Positions 4,629 through 23,686 of a stretch of 32,352 bases of DNA are shown in pieces. Source of the DNA: a bacterium (GTDB lineage Bacteria > Patescibacteriota > Saccharimonadia > Saccharimonadales > Saccharimonadaceae). A model generated the notes under the pieces. That model searched no databases and was not told the origin of the DNA. It worked only from the letters and a program-made list of their open reading frames with translations. Numbering within the stretch: the first letter of the stretch is position 1; the number at the start of each line of letters is the position of its first letter. A program made the position numbers and the translations under genes. The stretch is taken from contig JAKDMF010000004.1 of the NCBI GenBank assembly GCA_030452455.1, positions 1-32,352 on the forward strand. Reading direction: 5' to 3'.

Positions 4629-5873
4629 ATGCGAATATCTAAATTATTTACCAAAACAACCAAATCCGTACCAGCTGACGAAGTATCAAAAAACGCACAG
4701 CTACTTATTCAAGCCGGTTTTATCTATAAGGAAATGGCCGGCGTCTACGCTTATTTGCCGCTCGGTAAAAAGGTCCTCGATAACATTACTCAAGTTGTCC
4801 GCGAAGAAATGAATGCTGTCGGTGGCAATGAAATCAGCCTAACCGCTCTGCAGCGCAAAGACCTCTGGGAAACATCTGGTCGCTGGAGCGACGAAGTCAT
4901 GGACGTTTGGTTCAAGACAGACTTAGCTAGCGGTGGTCAGGTCGGCCTAGCCCCAACTCACGAAGAGCCACTTACGCAGCTTATGAAAGGCTTCATATCG
5001 AGCTACAAAGATCTACCAGTCTATCCGTACCAGTTCCAGATTAAATTCCGCAACGAACTCCGGGCTAAAAGTGGCCTGATGCGTGGCCGGGAGTTCTGGA
5101 TGAAAGACCTCTATAGCTTTAGTCGCGACAGGGCAGAGCACGAAAAATTCTACGATGAAATGGCCGAAGCCTATATGCGAGTTTACGCTCGACTGGGGCT
5201 CGGCGACTTAACCTACAAGACTTTTGCTAGCGGCGGCAGCTTCTCTAAATACAGTCATGAGTTCCAGACCGTTAGCCCCGTCGGTGAGGATAAAATTTAC
5301 ATCTCAAAAGCCAAAAATATCGCTATCAACGAAGAGGTTTATACCGATGAAGTATTAGCCGATCTTGGCTTGAGCCGCGAAGAAATGATTGAAGAAACAG
5401 CCGTGGAAGTTGGCAACATATTTACTCTTGGTACAAAATTCTCTGACGCTCTCGACCTCAGTTACACTGCCGAAGATGGCAGCGTTCAAAAAGTGTTTAT
5501 GGGTAGCTACGGTATCGGTCCGAGCCGCTTAATGGGTATAATTGCCGAACACTTCAGTGACGACAAAGGCCTAGTCTGGCCGGAAAATATTGCCCCAGGC
5601 AAGGTCTATTTGGTCCAAATCGGTGGCGATGAGTCACGTAAAATTGCCGACGAACTATATGACGAGCTCCAGTCCAAGGATATTAGTGTGATATTTGATG
5701 ATCGCGACGCTCGGCCAGGTGCCAAATTCGCCGATGCTGAACTTATGGGAATTCCATATCGCGTGACCGTCAGCGACAGGTTAATCGAAAATAATTCATA
5801 CGAATTTACTGATAGAAAGACCGGCCAAACTGAACTATTGACACACGATGAACTGCTTGCTAAACTGGATTAA
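4629..5873 (+). CDS. proS: Prolyl-tRNA synthetase, short form without editing domain
   Basis: Class II synthetase charging tRNA-Pro. Seen: bacterial-type N-terminus (KNAQLLIQAGFIYKEMAGVYAYLPLG), motif 1 region, the TXE-like loop APTHEEPLT, motif 2 KFRNELRAKSGLMRGREFWMKD, motif 3 GSYGIGPSRLMG, and the C-terminal anticodon-binding fold with FDDRDARPGAKFADAELMGIP. At 414 aa it is far shorter than typical bacterial ProRS (about 570 aa). The roughly 180-residue INS editing domain, normally between motifs 2 and 3, is replaced by a short linker (about residues 225-285). Known family biology: INS removes Ala-tRNA-Pro; some alphaproteobacterial and mitochondrial enzymes also lack it. A trans-editing factor would have to be elsewhere or be missing. 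Confidence 0.95.
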   Translation: MRISKLFTKTTKSVPADEVSKNAQLLIQAGFIYKEMAGVYAYLPLGKKVLDNITQVVREEMNAVGGNEISLTALQRKDLWETSGRWSDEVMDVWFKTDLASGGQVGLAPTHEEPLTQLMKGFISSYKDLPVYPYQFQIKFRNELRAKSGLMRGREFWMKDLYSFSRDRAEHEKFYDEMAEAYMRVYARLGLGDLTYKTFASGGSFSKYSHEFQTVSPVGEDKIYISKAKNIAINEEVYTDEVLADLGLSREEMIEETAVEVGNIFTLGTKFSDALDLSYTAEDGSVQKVFMGSYGIGPSRLMGIIAEHFSDDKGLVWPENIAPGKVYLVQIGGDESRKIADELYDELQSKDISVIFDDRDARPGAKFADAELMGIPYRVTVSDRLIENNSYEFTDRKTGQTELLTHDELLAKLD

Positions 5874-7248: not shown

Positions 7249-7321
7249 ACTTGCTCCTGCCGGACAAAAGCTAGGCCGACGACTAGGCTAATGGTATTTT
7301 GCGCCGAATGGTTAATCAGTG

Positions 7322-7327
7322 TATACT
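7322..7327 (+). promoter_or_regulatory. -10 element of lysS that fixes its start codon
   Basis: TATACT ends 9 nt before the ATG at 7337. It overlaps the first codons of the longer ORF-track start (7319), so that upstream ATG is unlikely to be transcribed. Confidence 0.6.
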
Positions 7328-7336
7328 GTAACAGAT

Positions 7337-8839
7337 ATGGCAACACTACAAGACTACCGCAATGAGCGACTACGAAAACTAGATGAATTAAAGCAACTGG
7401 GGTTCAATCCGTACCCAGCCGAGAGTCACATGACTCACAAAATCGGCCAGATTATTGATGAGTTCGACAAACTATCGGGCCAGACCGTGACTGTGGTTGG
7501 CCGGGTTGTTGGCCTGCGTAAATTTGGCAAGCTAGCTTTTGTGGTCGTTAAAGATTTCAGCGGTCAGATCCAACTATTTATGCGCGCCGGGGCAGTCGAT
7601 AAGACTGAGGCTAGTAGCGGCGTCGTCGGAATCGAAAATATCACCCTGCTTGATACGGGTGACTTCGTGGAGGCCACCGGTGAAGTTATGACCACCCAAA
7701 CTGGTGAAAAATCAGTTGGCGTTAAGACTTTGCGCCTACTATCAAAAGCTCTTCGGCCGATGCCGACCGAGCTGACCAACAAAGAGGAGCGGATGCGCCG
7801 TCGCTACGTCGATATGAATGTTAATCAGGACGTGCGCGATCGGTTTGTTCGCCGCTCTAAGTTCTGGAAAGCCACCCGTGACTACTTAGACGACAATGGT
7901 TTTCTAGAAGTTAATATCCCGGTTCTGGAGCACACCACGGGTGGAGCCGACGCCACTCCGTTTGTGACACACATGGAATCACTTGATCAAGATTTTTACC
8001 TGCGAATTAGTCACGAACTGCCGCTGAAACGCCTGGTTGGTGCTGGTTTTGAAAAAGTCTATGACCTAGGTCCACGCTTTAGAAACGAAGGCTACACCGA
8101 TGAGCATCTACCAGAGCATGTCGCCATGGAATGGTACTGGGCCTACGCCAACTGGAAAGATGGCATGAAATTCATGGAAGATATGTACAAAAATGTCCTC
8201 GATAAAACTTTTGGAACGCTGCAATTTAAGCTCGGTGAATTTGAGGTTGATATGAGCGGCGAGTGGGAAGTTTGGGACTACGCTACTATCATCAAAGACC
8301 GCTACGGTGTCGATGTTTTCGACAGCAGCCTCGATGAAGTCAAGCAAGCCCTCAAAGCCAACAGTCTAGAGGTTGAGCAGACCGAAAACCGAGCTCGCGG
8401 CATCGATAAACTCTGGAAAAATATCCGTAAAGATGTCGCCGGTCCGGTTTGGTTAGTTAATACACCGAAATTCATCAGTCCACTGTCTAAAAGCGATCCA
8501 GACGACGATCGGATTGTGCAGCGCTTCCAGCCGGTTATCGCCGGCTCAGAACTCGGTAACGGCTTCTCAGAGCTCAATGACCCAATTGAACAGCTCGATC
8601 GCTTTAAAGAACAGCAGGGTATGCGCGAAGCCGGCGATGATGAAGCTATGATGATGGATATTGATTTTGTTGAAATGCTGGAATACGGCATGCCACCAGC
8701 TTGTGGTTGGGGCTACTCAGAACGAGTTTTCTGGATATTCGAAGGTGTATCGGCCCGCGAAGGTGTGCCTTTCCCGCAGCTCCGGCTTGATTACGACGAA
8801 ACCACTCGGGATATTTACCCGGACATCAACTTAGGTTAA
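7337..8839 (+). CDS. lysS: Lysyl-tRNA synthetase, class II
   Basis: About 500 aa, normal length. Charges tRNA-Lys. Seen: an N-terminal OB fold (GQTVTVVGRVVGLRKFGKLAFVVVKD), motif 1 (RRSKFWKATRDYLDDNGFLEVNIPVLE), GGADATPFVTH and LRISHELPLKRLV, motif 2 (YDLGPRFRNEGYTDEHLPE) and a motif 3 region (EYGMPPACGWGYSERVFW). Motif 3 is odd: canonical LysRS has G-x-G-I-D-R, while this has GWGYSER, keeping the arginine but not the I-D. The track start at 7319 is replaced by 7337 because the -10 TATACT lies at 7322-7327; protein similarity to the family also begins after MATLQDYRNERL. A small membrane protein gene follows 4 nt later. Confidence 0.93.
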   Translation: MATLQDYRNERLRKLDELKQLGFNPYPAESHMTHKIGQIIDEFDKLSGQTVTVVGRVVGLRKFGKLAFVVVKDFSGQIQLFMRAGAVDKTEASSGVVGIENITLLDTGDFVEATGEVMTTQTGEKSVGVKTLRLLSKALRPMPTELTNKEERMRRRYVDMNVNQDVRDRFVRRSKFWKATRDYLDDNGFLEVNIPVLEHTTGGADATPFVTHMESLDQDFYLRISHELPLKRLVGAGFEKVYDLGPRFRNEGYTDEHLPEHVAMEWYWAYANWKDGMKFMEDMYKNVLDKTFGTLQFKLGEFEVDMSGEWEVWDYATIIKDRYGVDVFDSSLDEVKQALKANSLEVEQTENRARGIDKLWKNIRKDVAGPVWLVNTPKFISPLSKSDPDDDRIVQRFQPVIAGSELGNGFSELNDPIEQLDRFKEQQGMREAGDDEAMMMDIDFVEMLEYGMPPACGWGYSERVFWIFEGVSAREGVPFPQLRLDYDETTRDIYPDINLG

Positions 8840-9852: not shown

Positions 9853-12156
9853 ATGACAAATACGGCAAAACAGGGTATGGGCGACGGACTGCCGATTTTT
9901 AACTACAAGCAGGCGATCATCGATGCCGTTCATAGCAACCAGGTTACCATAATAACGGCCGAGACGGGTGCCGGTAAGAGTACTCAGGTGCCACAATATC
10001 TAATCGACGCGGGTTACGAAAAGGTTATCGTGACTGAGCCGCGAATACTAGCTGCTCGCAATCTATCGCTGCGAGTCAGGCAGGAGTGGCTCGATAGTCA
10101 CCCCGAGGCAGCCGAGCTGGAGATTGCCTACCGAACCGCCCATGAGCGAGATGACGATCCGACCACTACTAAGGTGCTGTATTGTACCGACGGCCTGCAA
10201 CTGGTGCGTGAGTTAACTGGTAGCGGCACAACAACCAAGCAGGTTCTAGTCCTCGACGAAGTCCACGAGTGGAACGAGAATATGGAGGTTCTGATAGCTT
10301 GGTCCAAGCAGCGGGCTAGTCAGGATCCTAATTTTAAAATTGTGATTATGAGCGCTACTATCGAATCGGCTAGTCTGGCTAGGTATTATGGCACCGAGGC
10401 GGTTATAGAAGTGCCGGGGCGAAGTTATGATGTCAAAAAGCGTCATGGCAGCGACGTCGTCTCAGAAATAATGAGCTACTTGCCGCAGCAGAAGAATCTA
10501 CTAGTTTTTCTGCCGGGTAAGTCTGAAATCCAAGAAGTCAACGACATTATAGCCAGGCAGGCGACCAAGCATAAAGTTCCGGTCATTGCTCTCCATTCCC
10601 AACTGGAGGCAGTGGCTCAGCAGGCAGCGTTTGAGAGCTACCCGAGCGGCAAAGTTATCCTGGCGACAAATATTGCTCAGACTAGTGTGACTATCGACGA
10701 TGTAGACGTCGTAATTGACAGCGGACTGGAGCGCCAGATTGAGGTCCGGAGCGGCGTTGAAGGACTTTTCTTGAACCAGGTAGCGAAAGCTGACTGCTTG
10801 CAGCGAGCTGGTCGAGCTGGCCGAACCAAACACGGTGAATATGTGCTGGCCCAGCTTGGTGAAATGGAGTGTATCAGCCTTGACGATCGGCAAGACTACG
10901 GTCAGCCGGAGATACTGCGTAAGCACATCGACCGGGTGGCTCTGCGCCTAGCCAGTATCGGCGTTGATATCGACGAGCTGGAGTTTTACCACTCACCGAG
11001 TAAAACCGCTATCAAACGAGCTAAGCGACGCCTGAAAGACCTCGGTGCGCTTGATCTACGCGGAGCGATTACTGATATCGGCCGGCAGATGGAGCAGTAT
11101 CCAGTTGAATCGAAGTATGGCCGGATGATTGTCGAAGCCTATCAGTATAACGCCCCAGTCCAGTCATGGTTAATTGCTATTATTGGTATCCAGGAGTCGG
11201 GTGGAATTGTCCGGGGCGGCACGCAATATGACGGCTGGAAGCAGTACGTCACCCACGACCAGTCAGATTTAATCGCCGAGTACGATGTCTATCTGGCGCT
11301 CGAGGATATTTACCCCGAAGAATACGAAGACCTCGGTATTATCGAAAAGAATGTCGACAAGGCGGAGGATGTTATCTCACGGCTCAGTGAAGTGCTCGGC
11401 ATAACTTATGACAAAGACCAGCAGCTAACCAAGCAGGAGCACGCCGACCTGTTACGCTGCATTGTGGCCGGCCAAATTGACCAGCTCTGGACTATCAATC
11501 AACGCGGCCAAGCCCTGCACTATATTACTCACGACGAGCGAGAAATATCGAATAGTTCGGTCGTCAAAAAAACGCCACTATTTGCTGGCACGCCATTTGA
11601 CCTGCAGGTGTCGAGCAAATCAGGCAAGCTGGAGGTTCTGCATCTAGTTCAGGATATAACTCGGGTCGATCCGAAGTGGCTGGCCGAGCTCCGCCCAGAT
11701 GTTTTCAAGCTCAAGCCCGGTACTCAGATGTATTACGACCCGTATATCGAGGGACTAGCTGAGCGACAGGACGTTTTAGTCCATGGCATGGTGTTGTCCG
11801 GTTCCGGCACACCTGTCACCAAAGCCTCATCCTATAACCGCAAACAATTCGAAGATCAATTCGCCCTCTGGGTGCACGAAAAACTAGAGTTCAAAAAATC
11901 AAAACTCGGCCGATTTACGCGTCGCCGAGTCAAAGTACCGAGCCTCCGGCAACTAGCCCTCCAGATTCGAGGCCGGGCCGGCGGAGTGGTTGCTCTCGAT
12001 CAGCTTGATAGCAAGGCTAGGCGCGAGCTGCTTAATTTAGCTCGGCTAGACGCACCGGGCGGGGGTAGGTCCGACAAGCCGGATAAAAAGCGTCGTTTCG
12101 GTAAGCCGAAGCAAAAAGATAAGCGTTTTAAGGGACCAAAGCACAAACGCTACTAA
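9853..12156 (+). CDS. DEAH/RHA-family ATP-dependent RNA helicase with DEVH motif (paralog 1)
   Basis: 767 aa superfamily 2 helicase of the HrpA/HrpB group. Seen: motif I AETGAGKST (about 36-44), motif Ia TEPRILAARN (about 61-70), motif II DEVH (135-138) instead of DEAH, motif III SAT (167-169), TNIAQTSVTI (272-281) and motif VI QRAGRAGR (317-324), then the winged-helix/ratchet region (about 340-520) and a helicase-associated OB-like region (about 575-670). The tail is lysine/arginine-rich (KKRRFGKPKQKDKRFKGP), probably RNA-binding. It is followed by a second helicase sharing the same unusual DEVHEWNEN block, indicating a tandem duplication. Role in mRNA or rRNA processing is inferred from the family; a specific target is unknown. 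Confidence 0.9.
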   Translation: MTNTAKQGMGDGLPIFNYKQAIIDAVHSNQVTIITAETGAGKSTQVPQYLIDAGYEKVIVTEPRILAARNLSLRVRQEWLDSHPEAAELEIAYRTAHERDDDPTTTKVLYCTDGLQLVRELTGSGTTTKQVLVLDEVHEWNENMEVLIAWSKQRASQDPNFKIVIMSATIESASLARYYGTEAVIEVPGRSYDVKKRHGSDVVSEIMSYLPQQKNLLVFLPGKSEIQEVNDIIARQATKHKVPVIALHSQLEAVAQQAAFESYPSGKVILATNIAQTSVTIDDVDVVIDSGLERQIEVRSGVEGLFLNQVAKADCLQRAGRAGRTKHGEYVLAQLGEMECISLDDRQDYGQPEILRKHIDRVALRLASIGVDIDELEFYHSPSKTAIKRAKRRLKDLGALDLRGAITDIGRQMEQYPVESKYGRMIVEAYQYNAPVQSWLIAIIGIQESGGIVRGGTQYDGWKQYVTHDQSDLIAEYDVYLALEDIYPEEYEDLGIIEKNVDKAEDVISRLSEVLGITYDKDQQLTKQEHADLLRCIVAGQIDQLWTINQRGQALHYITHDEREISNSSVVKKTPLFAGTPFDLQVSSKSGKLEVLHLVQDITRVDPKWLAELRPDVFKLKPGTQMYYDPYIEGLAERQDVLVHGMVLSGSGTPVTKASSYNRKQFEDQFALWVHEKLEFKKSKLGRFTRRRVKVPSLRQLALQIRGRAGGVVALDQLDSKARRELLNLARLDAPGGGRSDKPDKKRRFGKPKQKDKRFKGPKHKRY

Positions 12157-12186
12157 GCCATCAGCGAGTCCACTATCGTATTTAAC

Positions 12187-12217
12187 TATTTACTAAACAG
12201 AGTAAATATGGTAATAT
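12187..12217 (+). promoter_or_regulatory. Promoter with adjacent palindrome, helicase gene 2
   Basis: TATTTACT/AGTAAATA (8-bp inverted repeat with a 6-nt centre, 12187-12208) is immediately followed by a TAATAT -10-like hexamer (12212-12217). The transcript would have a leader of about 30 nt with GAGG before the ATG at 12253. A possible operator; moderate confidence only. Confidence 0.4.
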
Positions 12218-12252
12218 AGCGGCAATACAAACTGTGTGGTAATCGAGGTCGT

Positions 12253-15120
12253 ATGCAACGAAGTTTTGGTCGTGTAGACAATGATCACAGCCCCAAAGAA
12301 GGCTATCCTACGCCTGCGCATTATTACCACGAGAATCAGTTAGCTCAGCCAGAAATAAATAAACGAAAAATCGCCGAAATACAGCAGCAAATTGGTACGC
12401 GATCAGTTGAACTTACAGTCGAGACACCGTACCGATATAGCGGTGAGATTAGTCCGGCAGATTTGATCAGCCAAATGGCCGTACCGTATCAGGTTGAGCT
12501 CGAGGCTCGACGCGAAGAAGAAATGATCAAGAGCTTTGAAGGCTTCGGCAACCCAGAACTGCCAACTGCGGCCTATAAGCAGGAGATTATCGAGGCCGTT
12601 GCTAGCCATCAAGTAACGATTATTTCTGGCGACACTGGATCGGGTAAAAGCACCCAAGTTCCACAATTTCTATATGAGGCTGGCCACTCGATAGCCATGA
12701 CACAGCCGCGCCGAATCGCTGCCTATGGCGTAGCCGAGCGAATTGATGAAGAGTTACGCCAGGTCTCAGCCGATGAGCTACCCGAGAACGTAGTTGGCTA
12801 TCATACGGCGGAGAAGAACACGACCGATAAATCGACTAAGATCACTGTCTTCACCGACGGCCTGAAGCTAGTTAAAAAGCTCAATGAAAAATCCAGCAAA
12901 ATGGAAGAAATCCTTGTGATCGACGAAGTCCACGAGTGGAACGAAAATATTGAACTACTTGTGGCACACACTAAAAAGCTGCTAGCGGAAAACAGCGACA
13001 TGAAACTGGTCATTATGAGCGCCACTATGGACGGGCATGACCTAGCCCGCTACTACGGCGAAGTTACCAAAGAAGCTCCCTCAGTTATCGAAGTGCCGGG
13101 GCGTACTTTTGGTGTCGAAAAATCAGAGCTACCAACCGAGACAGTCGAGAGTCGGATTTTGCATCACGCCGAGCGTCTGAGCACCAAAAAACAGTCTCAA
13201 ATCGATGCACTGGAACGCGGCGAGGAGTTTGAGTCGGAGCCAACTGACATACTAGTCTTTCTGCCGGGGCTAGGCGAAATAAACGACAAGTTAGGCTATG
13301 TCAAAAAACATCTACCAGCTGAAATGCGCGATACAGTTAAAGCCCTGCCGCTTCACAGCAAGGTAGGCGAGGACATCCAGCAGGAGGTCTTTCAGGCTCA
13401 TCACGATGGTATCAAAATAATCCTGGCAACTAACGTGGCTCAAACCAGTATCACCGTCAACGGTATCGATACTGTGATCGACAGTGGGCTGGAGCGTCGG
13501 ATTGAGCTTGATGAAGCCGGTGTTCAGGGCCTAAGAGTCGCTCCAGCGTCTCGAGCTGATCTTACTCAGCGGATGGGTCGAACTGGCCGGACCGCACCGG
13601 GTCACTACGAGCTAGTTAAGCTCGATGAATCAACTGATTTCGTACCATTTATCGAGCGACCACAATATTCCGTACCGGAAATACTCCGGGTTGACCTGGC
13701 TCGTAGCATGCTGCGTCTAATCCCGGCCGGTCTTGATATTGAAACGCTTGATTTCTATCACCCGATTGAAAAAGAATCCATCAAGCGCGCCAAAGATGAA
13801 CTATACGGCTTGGGTGCGATTGATCAAGACGGTAATATAACTAAATCTGGCCGCCGCATGAATGATTTCCCGCTTAGTCCAAACTCCGGTCGAATGATGG
13901 TTGAGTCAGAAAATTACTCAAAACCAGTCCGGTCCTATATGGCGGCTATGACAGCCATCAAAGAGGTCGGTGGGCTACCGATGTACAACAAGCGCTCCAG
14001 TAACTGGAAAAAACTAACCAGCCAGACTAAGTCTGACATGCTGGCCCAACTCGATATATTTATAGCCATGAACGGCCAAGATTTTGAAACCCAGCGCGAG
14101 TTTGATATCGACGTTAAAAATATGCGCCGAGCCCATGAGCAGTTCAACAAAATCAACAACCTAGTTGATGGCAGCGACGATGCTCTAGCTACTAATCCAT
14201 CCAGTGACCAGATCGAGAATATGCAGAGCTGTATCTATGCCGGTATGGTTAACCAAGTTTTCAAATTCAGTGGTAACAACGAGCGAAAACGGCCCTCGTT
14301 TAGGCACCTTAACTCCAAGGACAAGACCCGTCGAGAAATCAGTAACCGGAGCGTAGTTGACTTTAAGGGTCGCAAAGATGGCTACCTAGTTGGTGAAAAA
14401 TGGCGAGCTGAATTCAAGCGCGGCTCGGAGCTAGTTGATCGACATATTATTGAAGGTGTCACTGTACTAGAAGACCCGAAAGTACTCGGCAAAATAGCCG
14501 CCCGACTTGTCAGCTGGGAGCAGACTAGTCAAGAAACTCACTGGCGTAACGGGCGACCGGCTAAAAACGAAAAATTGATGCTGGGTGAGATTGAAATGAG
14601 CGACAGCCGAGAAGCCGAGGCAGCGCCATCAGAGACGACTCGCCAGGTTATTATCGACAAAGCTCTTGATCGACCCGGTCCAGCCCAGGAGCATATTAGG
14701 CGCGTCAAAAGCGAAGTTGAGAAGCTCCAGCACCGCACCACTCAAGACCTTAAAAAAATAACCCATAGCGATCTAATGAAAATGGTAGATCAGGCTGCGC
14801 CGACAGATATCGTCGATCCATTTGTGATAGATAATAATCTATGGATCGCAATTGATAAGCACAATATCACAGTTGATAACTATGTTTCACCTGAGAAGCA
14901 GCAAGAAATTATGGAAAACTCACCATCAACCATTGACGCTGGTGGTGTCGAATACTACGTTGAGTATCATGGTGGCGAGCCACGAATTAAGCGCTATCAA
15001 AACAACGATATTTTAAAAACCGATGGTGATATCACTCTGGCGGACGGCCGCAAGGTTATGTTCGTCTACAAAAAACAGATGTACAGTTCTAGTCAGCTAA
15101 AATCGACTCTTCAGGCTTAA
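12253..15120 (+). CDS. DEAH/RHA-family ATP-dependent RNA helicase with DEVH motif (paralog 2)
   Basis: 955 aa helicase, paralogous to the preceding gene. An about 100-residue N-terminal extension precedes motif I GDTGSGKST (126-134); motif Ia is TQPRRIAAY, motif II DEVH (224-227), motif III SAT, then TNVAQTSITV and QRMGRTGR (motif VI). The helicase core is followed by the winged-helix/ratchet region and a C-terminal extension of about 200 residues (from about 750) with no counterpart in paralog 1; that part looks partly disordered (EAEAAPSETTRQ) and ends in a small beta-rich segment (VEYYVEYHGGEPRIKRYQ). Length and HrpA-like layout fit a longer member of the family. It has its own promoter-like region. 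The DEVHEWNEN block is shared with paralog 1. Confidence 0.9.
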   Translation: MQRSFGRVDNDHSPKEGYPTPAHYYHENQLAQPEINKRKIAEIQQQIGTRSVELTVETPYRYSGEISPADLISQMAVPYQVELEARREEEMIKSFEGFGNPELPTAAYKQEIIEAVASHQVTIISGDTGSGKSTQVPQFLYEAGHSIAMTQPRRIAAYGVAERIDEELRQVSADELPENVVGYHTAEKNTTDKSTKITVFTDGLKLVKKLNEKSSKMEEILVIDEVHEWNENIELLVAHTKKLLAENSDMKLVIMSATMDGHDLARYYGEVTKEAPSVIEVPGRTFGVEKSELPTETVESRILHHAERLSTKKQSQIDALERGEEFESEPTDILVFLPGLGEINDKLGYVKKHLPAEMRDTVKALPLHSKVGEDIQQEVFQAHHDGIKIILATNVAQTSITVNGIDTVIDSGLERRIELDEAGVQGLRVAPASRADLTQRMGRTGRTAPGHYELVKLDESTDFVPFIERPQYSVPEILRVDLARSMLRLIPAGLDIETLDFYHPIEKESIKRAKDELYGLGAIDQDGNITKSGRRMNDFPLSPNSGRMMVESENYSKPVRSYMAAMTAIKEVGGLPMYNKRSSNWKKLTSQTKSDMLAQLDIFIAMNGQDFETQREFDIDVKNMRRAHEQFNKINNLVDGSDDALATNPSSDQIENMQSCIYAGMVNQVFKFSGNNERKRPSFRHLNSKDKTRREISNRSVVDFKGRKDGYLVGEKWRAEFKRGSELVDRHIIEGVTVLEDPKVLGKIAARLVSWEQTSQETHWRNGRPAKNEKLMLGEIEMSDSREAEAAPSETTRQVIIDKALDRPGPAQEHIRRVKSEVEKLQHRTTQDLKKITHSDLMKMVDQAAPTDIVDPFVIDNNLWIAIDKHNITVDNYVSPEKQQEIMENSPSTIDAGGVEYYVEYHGGEPRIKRYQNNDILKTDGDITLADGRKVMFVYKKQMYSSSQLKSTLQA

Positions 15121-15185: not shown

Positions 15186-15881
15186 GTGATTGAAGTAAAA
15201 CAAGTTACAAAAACCTACGGCAAGAAAAAGAACATCTTCACGGCGCTCGATGATGTTAATTTTTCGGTGCCCAGTAACACCAGCGTCGCGATTGTCGGTA
15301 AGTCCGGCTCAGGTAAGTCGACGCTAATGCACATTATGAGCGGGCTCGACCGGCCCCAGCACGGCGAGATTATAATCGGTGATCGCGACATACTAAAACT
15401 TAAAGCCAGGCAGACCGACTCATTTCGGGCTAAGCAGATGGGCTTTGTTTTCCAGAGCTTTTTCGTTGAAGCTAATGAGTCATGTTACGAAAACGTCTCC
15501 CTGTCTCTTGAAATGTCACGTACACCGCAAATGGAGCGACGCAAACGGATTGAAGCAGCGCTGGCTGACGTCGACTTAACAGACAAAATTAAGTCCAAAG
15601 CCGGTGATCTATCGGGCGGCCAAAAGCAGCGCTTAGCGATTGCCCGAGCGATTGTTAACCAGCCAAAATTGCTATTTGCTGATGAGCCAACTGGCAACCT
15701 CGATACTGCCACTTCCCAGGTTGTTGAGGATCTATTATTTAAATACCAAACCGACAACAAGGCAACCTTGATAATCGTAACGCACGACGAAGAGCTAGCC
15801 GCCCGCTGTGACATGCAGATTATCATTAGCGACGGCAAAATATCAGAGATTCACGAAGCCGCCAAAAAGGAGTCTAAATAA
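15186..15881 (+). CDS. ABC transporter ATPase, MacB/LolD type
   Basis: 231 aa ATP-binding subunit. Seen: Walker A GKSGSGKST (38-46), Q-loop MGFVFQSF, signature LSGGQKQR, Walker B LLFADEPTGNLD and the H-loop IIVTHDEE. The LFADEPTGNLD block and length are typical of the MacB/LolD/FtsE subfamily, which powers mechanotransmission rather than classical translocation. The start is a GTG at 15186 preceded by AGGGGA about 6 nt upstream. It overlaps the permease gene by one base (TAATG), so the two are translated as a unit. A palindrome around the promoter suggests inducible control. Confidence 0.93.
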   Translation: MIEVKQVTKTYGKKKNIFTALDDVNFSVPSNTSVAIVGKSGSGKSTLMHIMSGLDRPQHGEIIIGDRDILKLKARQTDSFRAKQMGFVFQSFFVEANESCYENVSLSLEMSRTPQMERRKRIEAALADVDLTDKIKSKAGDLSGGQKQRLAIARAIVNQPKLLFADEPTGNLDTATSQVVEDLLFKYQTDNKATLIIVTHDEELAARCDMQIIISDGKISEIHEAAKKESK

Positions 15882-17263
15882 TGAAAACTATTGATATTGT
15901 AAAGCGAGCCGGTCGTAACTTAGGCCGAGCCAAGTCTCGAACTTTTTTGACAGCTGTGGCTATATCAGTTGGTGGTTTTGCTATTGTGGCTTCACTAGCC
16001 GCCGGCACGGGCGCCAAGCACTACGTCGACCAGGTGATTAGCGCTAATATGGACGAGCAATCGCTGGTAATCTACGCCGACTCCAAGTTTACCGATACCT
16101 CAAATGCCGCTACAAACTTTGCGCCTGGTCTGCGTGAATATGATCCAGATAGTTTTGAATCTCAGGGTGTTGATATGAAAGCTTTGACTCAAGACAATAT
16201 CGATCAACTGCGCCAGCGCGATGATCTTGCCAGCGTCGAGCCTTTTTATCAGCTGCAGCCGCAGTATGTAACTTTTGGGGTTGATAAGGGTCAGAAATAT
16301 TCGTCGGATGTTTATGCCTATGATGGCTCCAAGGTTTCACCGACGCTAGTCGGTAACATGCCGGAGCTTCATGGCATGTTGGGCGATGATGACGCCGTTA
16401 TTCCGCAGGCTTACTTAAAAACTCTCGGCATCGAAGAATCTGACGCTCAGAAAGCTATCGGCAGCGAAGTGACTGTTCGCGTCCAGCAGACACCCCAGAG
16501 TGTTGATAAAGATGAAATTCAAGCTGCCTTTATGAAGGGTGGAGAAAAAGCTGTTCAGAAATTGACTGAGGGCAAAACTATCGACAAAACATTCCAGATT
16601 GTTGCGGTCATGGGCAACTCGGTCAACGAGCTAGATCAACAGCAGGGTGTATTTATCAGCAGTAACGCCGCCAAAGAGCTATCCGATTTTAGCACCGAGG
16701 GAACTGACCTGCACGGTAAATATATGATGGCATTTGCGGTAGTAAAGGACGGTCTTGATCCAGCTGAGGTCAAAGATTCACTTAAAAATGATAAATTTTA
16801 CGCCTCAACTGCTGAAGACCTTCAGCAACTGCTATTTACATTTGTAAATGTCCTGCTCGGTATTGTGATTGGCTTCGGGGCACTAGCCCTAGTTGTCAGT
16901 GTCTTCGGTATCATTAATACCCAGTACATATCTGTCCTAGAGCGAACTCAGCAGATTGGCCTGATGAAGGCGCTCGGCGCCTCGAAGCGCGATATCGCCC
17001 GGCTGTTTAGGTACGAAGCTGCCTGGGTCGGCTTCCTGGGCGGAGCGCTCGGAGCTGGCGCCGCCTGGATTGCCGGAACTATCGCTAACCCGTGGATTAC
17101 CGATAAGCTGAACTTAGGCGACGGCAACTCACTGTTAATGTTTGAACTATTGCCATCGATTGGTGTTATTGTACTACTGGTTATTGTAGCGGTTGTATCC
17201 GGCTGGCTACCAAGCCGCAAAGCCGCTCGGCTCGATCCAATCGAAGCTCTCCGGACAGAATAA
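15881..17263 (+). CDS. MacB/FtsX-type ABC transporter permease
   Basis: 460 aa. Seen: one N-terminal membrane helix (TFLTAVAISVGGFAIVASLAAG), a large extracytoplasmic domain of about 270 residues (MacB periplasmic core-like), then three C-terminal helices (VNVLLGIVIGFGALALVVSVFGI, FLGGALGAGAAWIAGTIA, LLPSIGVIVLLVIVAVVSGWL) with the family-typical ERTQQIGLMKALGASKRDI cytoplasmic coupling helix and terminal PSRKAARLDPIEALR. This is the standard four-helix type VII ABC permease, exporting peptides, antibiotics or lipoproteins or sensing antimicrobials. AAGGAG lies 8 nt before ATG, inside the ATPase gene. In a cell with one membrane no TolC/MacA partner is expected, and none is visible. Substrate unknown. 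Confidence 0.92.
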   Translation: MKTIDIVKRAGRNLGRAKSRTFLTAVAISVGGFAIVASLAAGTGAKHYVDQVISANMDEQSLVIYADSKFTDTSNAATNFAPGLREYDPDSFESQGVDMKALTQDNIDQLRQRDDLASVEPFYQLQPQYVTFGVDKGQKYSSDVYAYDGSKVSPTLVGNMPELHGMLGDDDAVIPQAYLKTLGIEESDAQKAIGSEVTVRVQQTPQSVDKDEIQAAFMKGGEKAVQKLTEGKTIDKTFQIVAVMGNSVNELDQQQGVFISSNAAKELSDFSTEGTDLHGKYMMAFAVVKDGLDPAEVKDSLKNDKFYASTAEDLQQLLFTFVNVLLGIVIGFGALALVVSVFGIINTQYISVLERTQQIGLMKALGASKRDIARLFRYEAAWVGFLGGALGAGAAWIAGTIANPWITDKLNLGDGNSLLMFELLPSIGVIVLLVIVAVVSGWLPSRKAARLDPIEALRTE

Positions 17264-17855: not shown

Positions 17856-19154
17856 ATGTTAGACATACGATATATTCGCGACAACGCAGATGCAGTCCAA
17901 AAAAACGCGACCGATAAAGGCTACGAGGTTTCGATAGCCGAACTACTAAAACTAGATGACTCTCGACGTGAGCTACAGGGACAGGTCGATGAACTACGTG
18001 AAAAACGTAATCAAAACGCCGCTAGCATGAAGGGCGGCAAGCCATCACAAGAGGCGATTGATGAGGGCAAGCGCATCAAGCTTGAGCTAGCGGAGCGTGA
18101 CAAGTATCTAAATCAAGTCGATGCTGAATTTACAGACCTACTCAAACAAGTTCCAAATATGGCAACTGACGACGTGCCTTATGGCGCGACCGAAGACGAA
18201 AACGTTGAAATAAAAGTTGTCGGTGACATACCGCAGTTTGATTTTGCGCCAAAAAACCACTTTGAAATAGCCGAAGCCAAAGGCTGGCTTGATAAAGAGC
18301 GGGCCGCTAAGGTCTCCGGTGCCCGGTTTGCCTATGTTATGGGCGACATGGTGCTCTTGCAGCAGGCTATTATACAGTTTGTGATGAGTACACTGACAGA
18401 TCCGAAAAAAGTAGCGGACATCATAGCTGGTGCCGGACTTGATATTGATACTCGACCATTTATTCCAGTCTTGCCACCGTTGATGATTAAGACCGAGCCG
18501 TATGATCAGATGGACCGTTTGCAGCCCAGCGATGATCGCTATAAGATCGAGGGCGAAGAGCTATGGCTTCAGGGTAGTGCCGAGCACGTGCTCGGTAGTA
18601 TGCACGCTGGTGAGATTTTTGAGCAGAGTGAGCTACCTAAGCGCTATCTTGGATTTGCGACTAGCTTCCGTAAAGAAGCCGGAACATACGGCAAGGACAT
18701 GGAAGGCATTATTCGCATGCATCAGTTCGATAAGCTTGAAATGGAGAGCTTCACGACGGCTGATGACAGTTTCGATGAGCATCAACTATTTGTGGCAATT
18801 CAAGAACACCTATTGCAACAACTTAAGCTGCCGTACCACGTCCTGCTAAAATGCTCGGTTGATATCGGCAAGCCTAATGCTCGTGGTATCGACATGGAAG
18901 TTTGGCTACCGGCTCAGTCAAAGTACCGGGAAACACACACCGCCGACTATATGACAGACTATCAAGCCCGTCGTTTGAACACCCGAGTTAGGCGCGATTC
19001 TGGCAAGTTAGAATTGATCCACACCAATGACGCGACAGCCTTTGCGCTCGGTCGAGCGATGGTGGCAATTATCGAAAACTATCAAACAGTTGATGGTGAC
19101 GTTCGAGTTCCGGAAGTCCTGCAGCCATATCTTGGTGGCCGCGAGACCCTATAG
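17856..19154 (+). CDS. serS: Seryl-tRNA synthetase
   Basis: 432 aa, normal length. Class II synthetase charging tRNA-Ser. Seen: N-terminal MLDIRYIRDNADAVQKNATDKG and a long antiparallel coiled coil (about 30-100) that grips the tRNA-Ser variable arm, then the catalytic core with a TAE-like loop (LWLQGSAEHVLGSMH; here S-A-E), motif 2 FRKEAGTYGKDMEGIIRMHQFDKLE, ETHTADYMTDYQARRLNTR and motif 3 DGDVRVPEVLQPYLGG with an upstream ALGRAMVAIIENYQ. Motif 2 and motif 3 residues appear intact. It is the first gene of the serS-hpf-secA stretch but hpf has its own promoter. Confidence 0.97.
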   Translation: MLDIRYIRDNADAVQKNATDKGYEVSIAELLKLDDSRRELQGQVDELREKRNQNAASMKGGKPSQEAIDEGKRIKLELAERDKYLNQVDAEFTDLLKQVPNMATDDVPYGATEDENVEIKVVGDIPQFDFAPKNHFEIAEAKGWLDKERAAKVSGARFAYVMGDMVLLQQAIIQFVMSTLTDPKKVADIIAGAGLDIDTRPFIPVLPPLMIKTEPYDQMDRLQPSDDRYKIEGEELWLQGSAEHVLGSMHAGEIFEQSELPKRYLGFATSFRKEAGTYGKDMEGIIRMHQFDKLEMESFTTADDSFDEHQLFVAIQEHLLQQLKLPYHVLLKCSVDIGKPNARGIDMEVWLPAQSKYRETHTADYMTDYQARRLNTRVRRDSGKLELIHTNDATAFALGRAMVAIIENYQTVDGDVRVPEVLQPYLGGRETL

Positions 19155-22399: not shown

Positions 22400-23686
22400 A
22401 TGCAGCATAAAACAACCGAGGTTCGCTTAAAAAACGGTGCTCGCGGACTTTTGATAGATGTACCCGGCGCAACTGTGATGAGTTTTCAGTTTCAGTTTCG
22501 TGCCGGCAACCGTTTCGTCCAGTCTCAGGACAAATACGAAACCGCCCACATCATGGAGCATCTCGCTTTTGGTGCCAATAGCGAGTTCAAGAGTGAGCAT
22601 GCCTACGAGGCTGATTTCACTAAAAATGGCGCCTATCACAATGCCTATACGAGCGATCTATCGATGGTGTATATCGCGGACTGTGCTGATTTTGAGTGGG
22701 AGCGAATCCTACGCCTGCAGCAGGTAGCTATTTGTAGCCCGAAGTTCAACAACCGCGAGCTCGAGGCCGAAAAAGGTAATGTCCGCAGTGAGCTAACTGG
22801 CTACCTGAACAACCACAACCGGGTGCTGTGGCCAAAAGTTCAGCAACTACTAGGCGAGGACGTCTATACATTCTGGCAGCGGATCCAGACTATTAATAAT
22901 GTTACGCTGGCGGACATCAAAGAACACTACGCTCGGACGCACACCGCTAAAAATCTTCGCTTTATCATCGCCGGCAAGATCGACGGCCGTAAAAGCCAGA
23001 TTGTCCGGATGCTCGAGTCTTGGGACCTGGAAACCGGAGAGCGATTCGCGGCACCGGTTGATGAATATAGTGACGCTAACCCGACATTGATTCGCCGCAA
23101 GGAAGCCTCCAACCTAACATTTGCTTGGTCGATGGTCTTGCCGTATGAAATCAGTGAGGAGGAGACTGATGCAATGGACTGTCTGAACCATATCTTGACT
23201 GGCACGATGCACTCCAGGATATACGGTGCCGCTCGCAAGCGTGGCCTAGCTTATGGCATGTTCTCAGACACTGGGGTGGCAGCTGGTACAACTGGCTGGG
23301 ACTTTGGTGGTCAGGTCAACCTAGAGACCTCAGAGGACTTATTTAAGATTATAAACCGCGAGCTCAAAAAAGTTGTTGATGGTGATATCAGCGACGAAGA
23401 GATTGAGTCGGCTAAAAGCTATGCGATTGGTCGCCACCAGATGGGTGCCCAGACTGTCGCTCAGATTAGTAGTTTCTACACCGGCCGCTACTTCACGGAC
23501 GGGACAGTCAAAAGCTATGACAAAGTGCCGGAATCAATCAAGACGATCTCCAAAGACTGTATGATCGACACCGCCCGCCAATTCTTCACTAAGGGCTCCT
23601 GGGTCCTAGCCGGTGTCAGTAGTGGCGAAAAAGAGGATATAGTTAATCTTTCCGATAGACTAGCACCACTATTCGAAACGCGCTAA
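22400..23686 (+). CDS. M16-family zinc metallopeptidase
   Basis: 428 aa, one M16A/M16B-type subunit consisting of two homologous domains. Seen: the inverted zinc motif HIMEH (residues 50-54) with the catalytic glutamate, and the third zinc ligand expected in the helix ELEAEKGNVRSEL about 77 residues later, so the N-terminal domain looks catalytically competent. The C-terminal domain (about 220-428) has the usual inactive half with a RKRGLAYGMFSD arginine/tyrosine segment used for substrate binding. The family includes mitochondrial processing peptidase and PqqF/YmxG. It lies 14 nt after secA, so a link to secreted or signal peptide degradation is an inference from position only. Confidence 0.9.
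   Translation: MQHKTTEVRLKNGARGLLIDVPGATVMSFQFQFRAGNRFVQSQDKYETAHIMEHLAFGANSEFKSEHAYEADFTKNGAYHNAYTSDLSMVYIADCADFEWERILRLQQVAICSPKFNNRELEAEKGNVRSELTGYLNNHNRVLWPKVQQLLGEDVYTFWQRIQTINNVTLADIKEHYARTHTAKNLRFIIAGKIDGRKSQIVRMLESWDLETGERFAAPVDEYSDANPTLIRRKEASNLTFAWSMVLPYEISEEETDAMDCLNHILTGTMHSRIYGAARKRGLAYGMFSDTGVAAGTTGWDFGGQVNLETSEDLFKIINRELKKVVDGDISDEEIESAKSYAIGRHQMGAQTVAQISSFYTGRYFTDGTVKSYDKVPESIKTISKDCMIDTARQFFTKGSWVLAGVSSGEKEDIVNLSDRLAPLFETR

Follow-up and report, generated by a model that had tools for sequence, protein, structure and literature searches.

The window, meaning the whole stretch of 32,352 nucleotides analysed here, belongs to a Saccharibacteria (CPR) contig and contains two neighbouring open reading frames on one strand. 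Each encodes a complete DExH (DEAH/RHA-type) helicase with DEVHEWNEN in motif II. Besides motif II, motifs I, Ia, Ib, III, IV, V and VI were all found in copy 1 and copy 2; motif I of copy 1 reads AETGAGKST. Both proteins have the defining features of DEAH/RHA-type SF2 RNA helicases: Walker A and B, motifs I–VI with QRxGRxGR in motif VI, and a C-terminal HA2 winged helix (HA2_N, PF04408, above its cut-off in both). In the same stretch, promoter-like sites occurred at the level of shuffled sequence, and terminator-like sites modestly above it. The features are collected in Table 1.

Table 1. Coordinates of the helicase genes, their parts and the neighbouring genes in the window.
Feature	Position	Strand	Basis
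Copy 1, predicted DExH RNA helicase, A-type, 767 aa	9853..12156	+	ORF; Pfam Helicase_C 3e-14, DEAD 1e-8, HA2_N 1e-5; clade A
Copy 2, predicted DExH RNA helicase, B-type, 955 aa	12253..15120	+	ORF; Pfam Helicase_C 2e-11, DEAD 9e-9, HA2_N 3e-7; clade B
Motif II block DEVHEWNEN, copy 1 residues 135-143	10255..10281	+	
Motif II block DEVHEWNEN, copy 2 residues 224-232	12922..12948	+	
HA2 winged-helix domain, copy 1 residues 393-418	11029..11106	+	Pfam PF04408
HA2 winged-helix domain, copy 2 residues 517-541	13801..13875	+	Pfam PF04408
C-terminal region of copy 1 unshared with copy 2, residues 614-767, basic tail	11692..12153	+	BLASTP boundary; tail composition; AF2 pLDDT
N-terminal extension of copy 2, residues 1-95	12253..12537	+	BLASTP boundary; B alignment; low AF2 pLDDT
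C-terminal domain of copy 2, residues 785-955, conserved in B-types	14605..15117	+	14-sequence alignment
Lysyl-tRNA synthetase-type class II synthetase, upstream, copy 1 slot	7319..8839	+	Pfam tRNA-synt_2 + OB; synteny family f11
ABC ATPase + FtsX/MacB permease, downstream, copy 1 slot	15186..17263	+	Pfam; synteny families f1, f14
Seryl-tRNA synthetase, copy 1 slot	17856..19154	+	Pfam; synteny family f13

To which branch of the DEAH/RHA group do these proteins belong? The HrpA and HrpB models match the helicase core of both copies at 198–298 bits. For HrpA (TIGR01967), copy 1 scored 223.9 and copy 2 298.4 bits, both far under the equivalog cut-off of 722.75; for HrpB (TIGR01970), the scores were 233 and 217.7 bits, again far under the cut-off of 546.15. 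The HrpA C-terminal region was not detectable in either copy. HrpB_C (PF08482) had no match in either full-length protein, and among the C-termini of 14 proteins of copy 2's type (B, defined below) it matched two, with a best E of 0.04 that is not significant. At the level of fold, a match to Prp43/HrpA extends over about 700 residues, with the OB region at low confidence in the models; the relatives returned by the fold search were a helicase chain of the SSU processome, HrpA, Prp43 and Prp22, and those found in the PDB by sequence were DHX8, HrpA, Prp43, Prp16 and Prp22. Judged by their sequences, both genes are predicted to encode SF2 RNA helicases that belong to a DEVHEWN subfamily within the DEAH/RHA (HrpA/HrpB/DHX) group. 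We define this subfamily by membership of the supported clade described below together with DE[V/I]HEWN in motif II, and both copies have the two attributes.

How unusual is the motif II block? DNA that could encode DEVHEWNEN occurs twice in the window's genome and in five of the 379 other genomes of the phylum sample; the full block is thus confined to 6/380 genomes, every one of them in the window's family. As a control, the backwards pattern scored no hit in any genome listed, and DEVHEWNEN is therefore no chance match. When 84,980 species genomes of the GTDB collection were scanned for peptides of copy 2 (HEWNENIE among them, and exact peptides only), four relatives were returned. The initial annotation had presented DEVH as unusual. 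Although both copies indeed have it, DEVH by itself is minor and within the usual variation, since E. coli HrpB reads DEFHERS (E. coli HrpA has DEAHERS); HrpA or HrpB of Nonomuraea, Proteus, Pseudomonas, Halomonas and Persicobacter likewise reads DEAHERS or DEFHERS. What would have undone the claim for the longer block, its being common in HrpA/HrpB homologs outside CPR, was not seen among the HrpA and HrpB sampled. Nearly all copy 1-type proteins read DEVHEWNENMEV, three having DEIH, and copy 2-type proteins vary at this place (EWN, EWG, ERN, EMN, EAN). From this near-uniformity in the one type and variability in the other, we take the block to be a conserved type A signature that is also held by copy 2 and by some of copy 2's own relatives.

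The shorter string DEVHEWN was also found in unrelated proteins on three viral contigs (L164, L167 and L169), which were considered and rejected as helicase relatives; in L169 (9261-10964), it is placed in an apparent terminase-type Walker B. The seven-residue motif alone is therefore not diagnostic.

Two trees agree that neither HrpA nor HrpB falls within the clade formed by the CPR helicases. In the more careful of them (50 rows), that clade comprises 39 rows, an early group C included, with support of 100/100, and the four HrpA rows form a 100/100 clade of their own with neither copy inside it. The DEVHEWN block marks a real, strongly supported clade apart from HrpA and HrpB. Two types are distinguished within it and are united by a node with support of 89/93: type A (8 rows, 100/100), made up of copy 1 and its orthologs from many Saccharibacteria, and type B (17 rows, 99/98), made up of copy 2 and its relatives. 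Core identity reaches 67% between copy 1 and its orthologs and 49% between copy 2 and its relatives. The copies themselves align at 36% identity (BLASTP; copy 1 residues 7-613 with copy 2 residues 96-748). Constraining them to be sisters cost 110 log-likelihood units and was rejected (AU p = 2.3e-8). The two copies thus appear to be anciently separated paralogs, each with its own relatives. The initial annotation's view of both proteins as HrpA/HrpB-like yet distinct was borne out, and so was the inheritance of the block from a shared divergent ancestor. The phylogeny with HrpA, HrpB and DHX helicases that it had proposed yielded the distinct subfamily but not a sister pair.

The genomic surroundings point the same way. 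A-type genes occur together with B- or C-type genes in ten other genomes, on separate contigs or tens of kilobases apart, and in none of the ten are they adjacent. Copy 1 lies in a slot (ProRS, GreA, LysRS, helicase, ABC, FtsX, SerRS, SecA) that is retained wholly or partly at six other loci (L113-L116, L125, L126). B-type genes occupy three others: (i) CTP synthase-ArgRS-MscL-B-RNase T-YjbR-DnaG-RpoD; (ii) UvrA-VTT-L25-B/C-ABC-rhodanese, which the divergent C group occupies as well; and (iii) RpoD-B-kinase-PolA. In the window's genome, which is 86% complete and may hold a second B-type copy elsewhere, MscL is followed directly by the RNase T gene, L25 directly by the rhodanese gene, and the gap between RpoD and the kinase is filled by a 308-aa ORF with no match to helicases. 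Because copy 2's relatives sit in three other slots, all of them helicase-free here, copy 2 probably arrived beside copy 1 separately, by relocation or acquisition, with copy 1 in what seems to be its usual chromosomal slot. Recent import of copy 2 was also considered; the GC content and codon use of both genes are like those of their neighbours and give no compositional sign of it. The duplication at this locus that was initially proposed, in which a single DEVHEWN helicase gene was copied in tandem, recently or locally, and the copies then diverged, would account for two adjacent genes on one strand with an identical nine-residue block, but it is refuted under the model used, and is very improbable unless the tree is distorted by gene conversion or long-branch effects: the copies are only 36% identical, fall in separate clades with different relatives, are rejected as sisters by the AU test, and belong to types that lie at different conserved positions, and never side by side, in the ten genomes with both.

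Three further observations concern these slots and their neighbours. The site after L25, downstream of UvrA and VTT, holds B-types at four of the loci compared (L096, L093, L094, L101) and members of the C group at six (L107, L108, L111, L134, L138, L141), as if it repeatedly receives helicase genes. The proline-tRNA ligase of the window (4629-5873) is only 414 aa long and matches the bacterial-type model in two pieces, which suggests that it lacks the internal editing insertion. Between SecA and MurD (22400-23686) lies a peptidase-like protein with a weak match to YfmF/YfmH, which are associated with EF-P modification.

The termini of the two copies have diverged, as had been claimed, though not quite in the manner described. 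The extra N-terminal segment of copy 2, put at about 100 residues, measures about 95; it is poorly conserved, save for a short segment at the start in some B members. The C-terminal extension of about 200 residues does not stand as a simple addition: about 207 residues of copy 2 are indeed unshared, but so are about 154 of copy 1, and the tails therefore differ rather than copy 2 being copy 1 plus an extension. The last 60 residues of copy 1 include 20 K+R vs. 7 D+E. In copy 2, the C-terminal ~170 residues form a domain that is kept in B-types, with a helical segment, PGxAQxxLRxIKxELExL, and a second segment, DGREVxF, in the 14-sequence alignment. A profile of this domain gave weak, scattered matches and no confident one in the PDB and Pfam; a calcium-binding CIB-type protein, the best of these (E 0.003 over 60 residues), was judged a chance match. 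AF2 models built from six sequences had mean pLDDT values of 61 for copy 2 and 68 for copy 1, acceptable in the core but not in the extensions. Values were below 50 for copy 1 residues 624-767 and over most of the copy 2 extensions, for which structure prediction had been suggested, and we claim no fold for them.

What might such proteins do? Both copies would be active, ATP-driven RNA helicases. By analogy with the family, single-stranded RNA would be threaded between the two RecA domains and the winged-helix/ratchet/OB domains, and an RNA-driven ATPase would support 3' to 5' translocation and the stripping or remodelling of RNA-protein complexes; the differing C-terminal regions may give each copy its own binding partner. 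The genes are patchily distributed. Matches to copy 2 were found in 53/151 genomes sampled of the window's family, and the DEVHEWN clade as a whole is patchy in Saccharibacteria and present in a few other CPR lineages. About two thirds of the family members sampled lack the genes, and the role is therefore dispensable. As for the cellular target, we tentatively put first the ribosome or another mRNP, in line with E. coli HrpA, while holding this with more doubt than confidence; the target is the weakest step of the explanation. E. coli HrpA is reported to rescue ribosomes that have collided (Campbell et al. 2025, cited in PMC13159725 and PMC11633108). More speculatively, the present proteins may perhaps rescue stalled ribosomes in the same way. 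A Smr-domain protein of SmrB/MutS2 type was absent from all 33 Saccharibacteria genomes tested, G000 included (9 of 14 control genomes were positive), and tmRNA was present in 12/12. The Smr domain is absent whether the helicase is present or not, and there is therefore no complementarity to back ribosome rescue; the Smr/tmRNA pattern speaks neither for nor against it. Taken as a whole, we consider it probable that the two genes encode SF2 RNA helicases of the DEVHEWN subfamily, ancient paralogs of types A and B, with copy 2 placed separately and an RNP or ribosome as the possible target.

A different role, RNA decay or processing with a nuclease partner such as the RNase T/Orn-type exonuclease beside many B-types, is brought to mind by slot (i), where an RNase T-family gene follows the B-type gene in most genomes. 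We regard it as unlikely: copy 2 of the window does not adjoin RNase T, the exonuclease remains in its slot where the helicase is missing, and adjacency is weak evidence in gene-dense genomes.

Unexpectedly, members of the clade were also found on contigs of uncultivated jumbo phages. DNA encoding DEVHEWN was present in ten IMG/VR stretches, of which six encode relatives of copy 1 that score 223–395 bits, the lowest being partial (E. coli HrpA, 188). Copy 1-related DEVHEWN helicases were found at L162, L163, L166/L171, L173, L161, L165 and L170; the protein of L165 is identical to that of L166, and the independent lineages are therefore fewer than six. Four of the contigs are 187–250 kb long. 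Around the L171 helicase lie a divergent DNA polymerase of family B (PF20286, phrog_2927), a match to a phage RNA polymerase beta subunit (phrog_3015) and an HNH gene, and L170 carries an RNase H (phrog_3265) together with a protein of phrog_3241. The phage status of the contigs rests on these families of DNA polymerase, RNA polymerase beta and RNase H, and that of L162 and L163 on IMG/VR classification and place in the tree. Neither terminase PF03237 nor, in a search run without a positive control, NCLDV capsid PF04451 had a match in the phage contigs. For phage phiKZ, PMC12571901 likewise lists genes for RNA polymerase beta, DNA polymerase and RNase HI, and we infer a link between our contigs and phiKZ-like phages. 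The phages collection yielded as relatives only records with cellular-type HrpA/HrpB matches.

In the careful tree, four phage rows are united with five long CPR members (L146, L147, L148, L105, L151) in a clade supported at 100/100. Keeping the phage rows out of the CPR A-type branch was rejected (AU p = 0.001), a nesting that unsampled phyla could alter. The motif is absent from the HrpA and HrpB sampled, as supposed, but it is not strictly a CPR trait, since jumbo-phage helicases have the DEVHEWN core. It is possible, if rather doubtful, that the helicase was exchanged between CPR and phiKZ-like jumbo phages, either as a host RNA/ribosome helicase captured by a phage or as a phage helicase domesticated in CPR. 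Such an exchange would suggest that jumbo phages and CPR bacteria meet, or that they share an intermediate host.

These relatives, the patchy presence (53/151) and the sharing of several alternative slots by divergent types would also suit a part in phage-host conflict: a fast-evolving helicase at fixed chromosomal slots, acting for or against phages rather than in housekeeping RNA work. This is quite improbable in our view, for the annotated neighbours are housekeeping genes with no defence gene recognised among them, and no effector domain was found besides the helicase. It is highly unlikely that either gene, or the pair, is a decaying or inactive remnant: an in-frame TAG interrupts the A-type helicase gene of one relative (L075, in genome G431), but both frames here are long and intact with all motifs and ordinary codon use, and the C-terminal domain of copy 2 is conserved in B-types.

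We return to a pair of ancient helicase paralogs with a possible RNP or ribosome target. The observation made initially is correct and the history attached to it wrong; the helicases form a new, little-described subfamily of the HrpA/HrpB family, and no paper naming DEVHEWN helicases in Saccharibacteria was found in the literature searched. Few CPR bacteria have a helicase that matches the HrpA model (15/287 genomes in the phylum sample). With its two old paralog types, its conserved C-terminal domain that matches nothing known and its jumbo-phage members, the subfamily offers a testable way into RNA or ribosome quality control in reduced-genome cells, and into the exchange of genes between these cells and giant phages. 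The clade common to CPR and jumbo phages most deserves to be pursued.

How do these proteins compare with known systems? E. coli HrpA (TIGR01967), a DEAH-box RNA helicase, shares their fold and motif order, is the best NCBIfam match of copy 2 (298 bits) and was returned by the fold search (6zww/8po6). However, it has DEAHERS where the copies have DEVHEWN, and they score far below its cut-off, lack a detectable HrpA C-terminal region and fall in a separate clade. HrpB (TIGR01970) is the best NCBIfam match of copy 1 (233 bits) and is of similar length (767 vs. ~824 aa), but it reads DEFHERS, its cut-off is likewise not reached, HrpB_C has no significant match, and it too lies in another clade. 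The eukaryotic DHX/Prp helicases (DHX8, Prp43, Prp22) provide copy 1's best PDB sequence matches (E 4e-59) and the same RecA-RecA-WH-ratchet-OB plan; in contrast, they have another motif II, DHX8 falls outside the subfamily in the tree, and no G-patch partner is known for the copies. The jumbo-phage DEVHEWN helicases (L162, L163, L166/L171, L173) differ in lying on phage contigs and in nesting with the long CPR members rather than with copy 1, yet they share the motif II core and the clade, and three of them (L162, L163, L166) score ~380–395 bits to copy 1 vs. 188 for E. coli HrpA.
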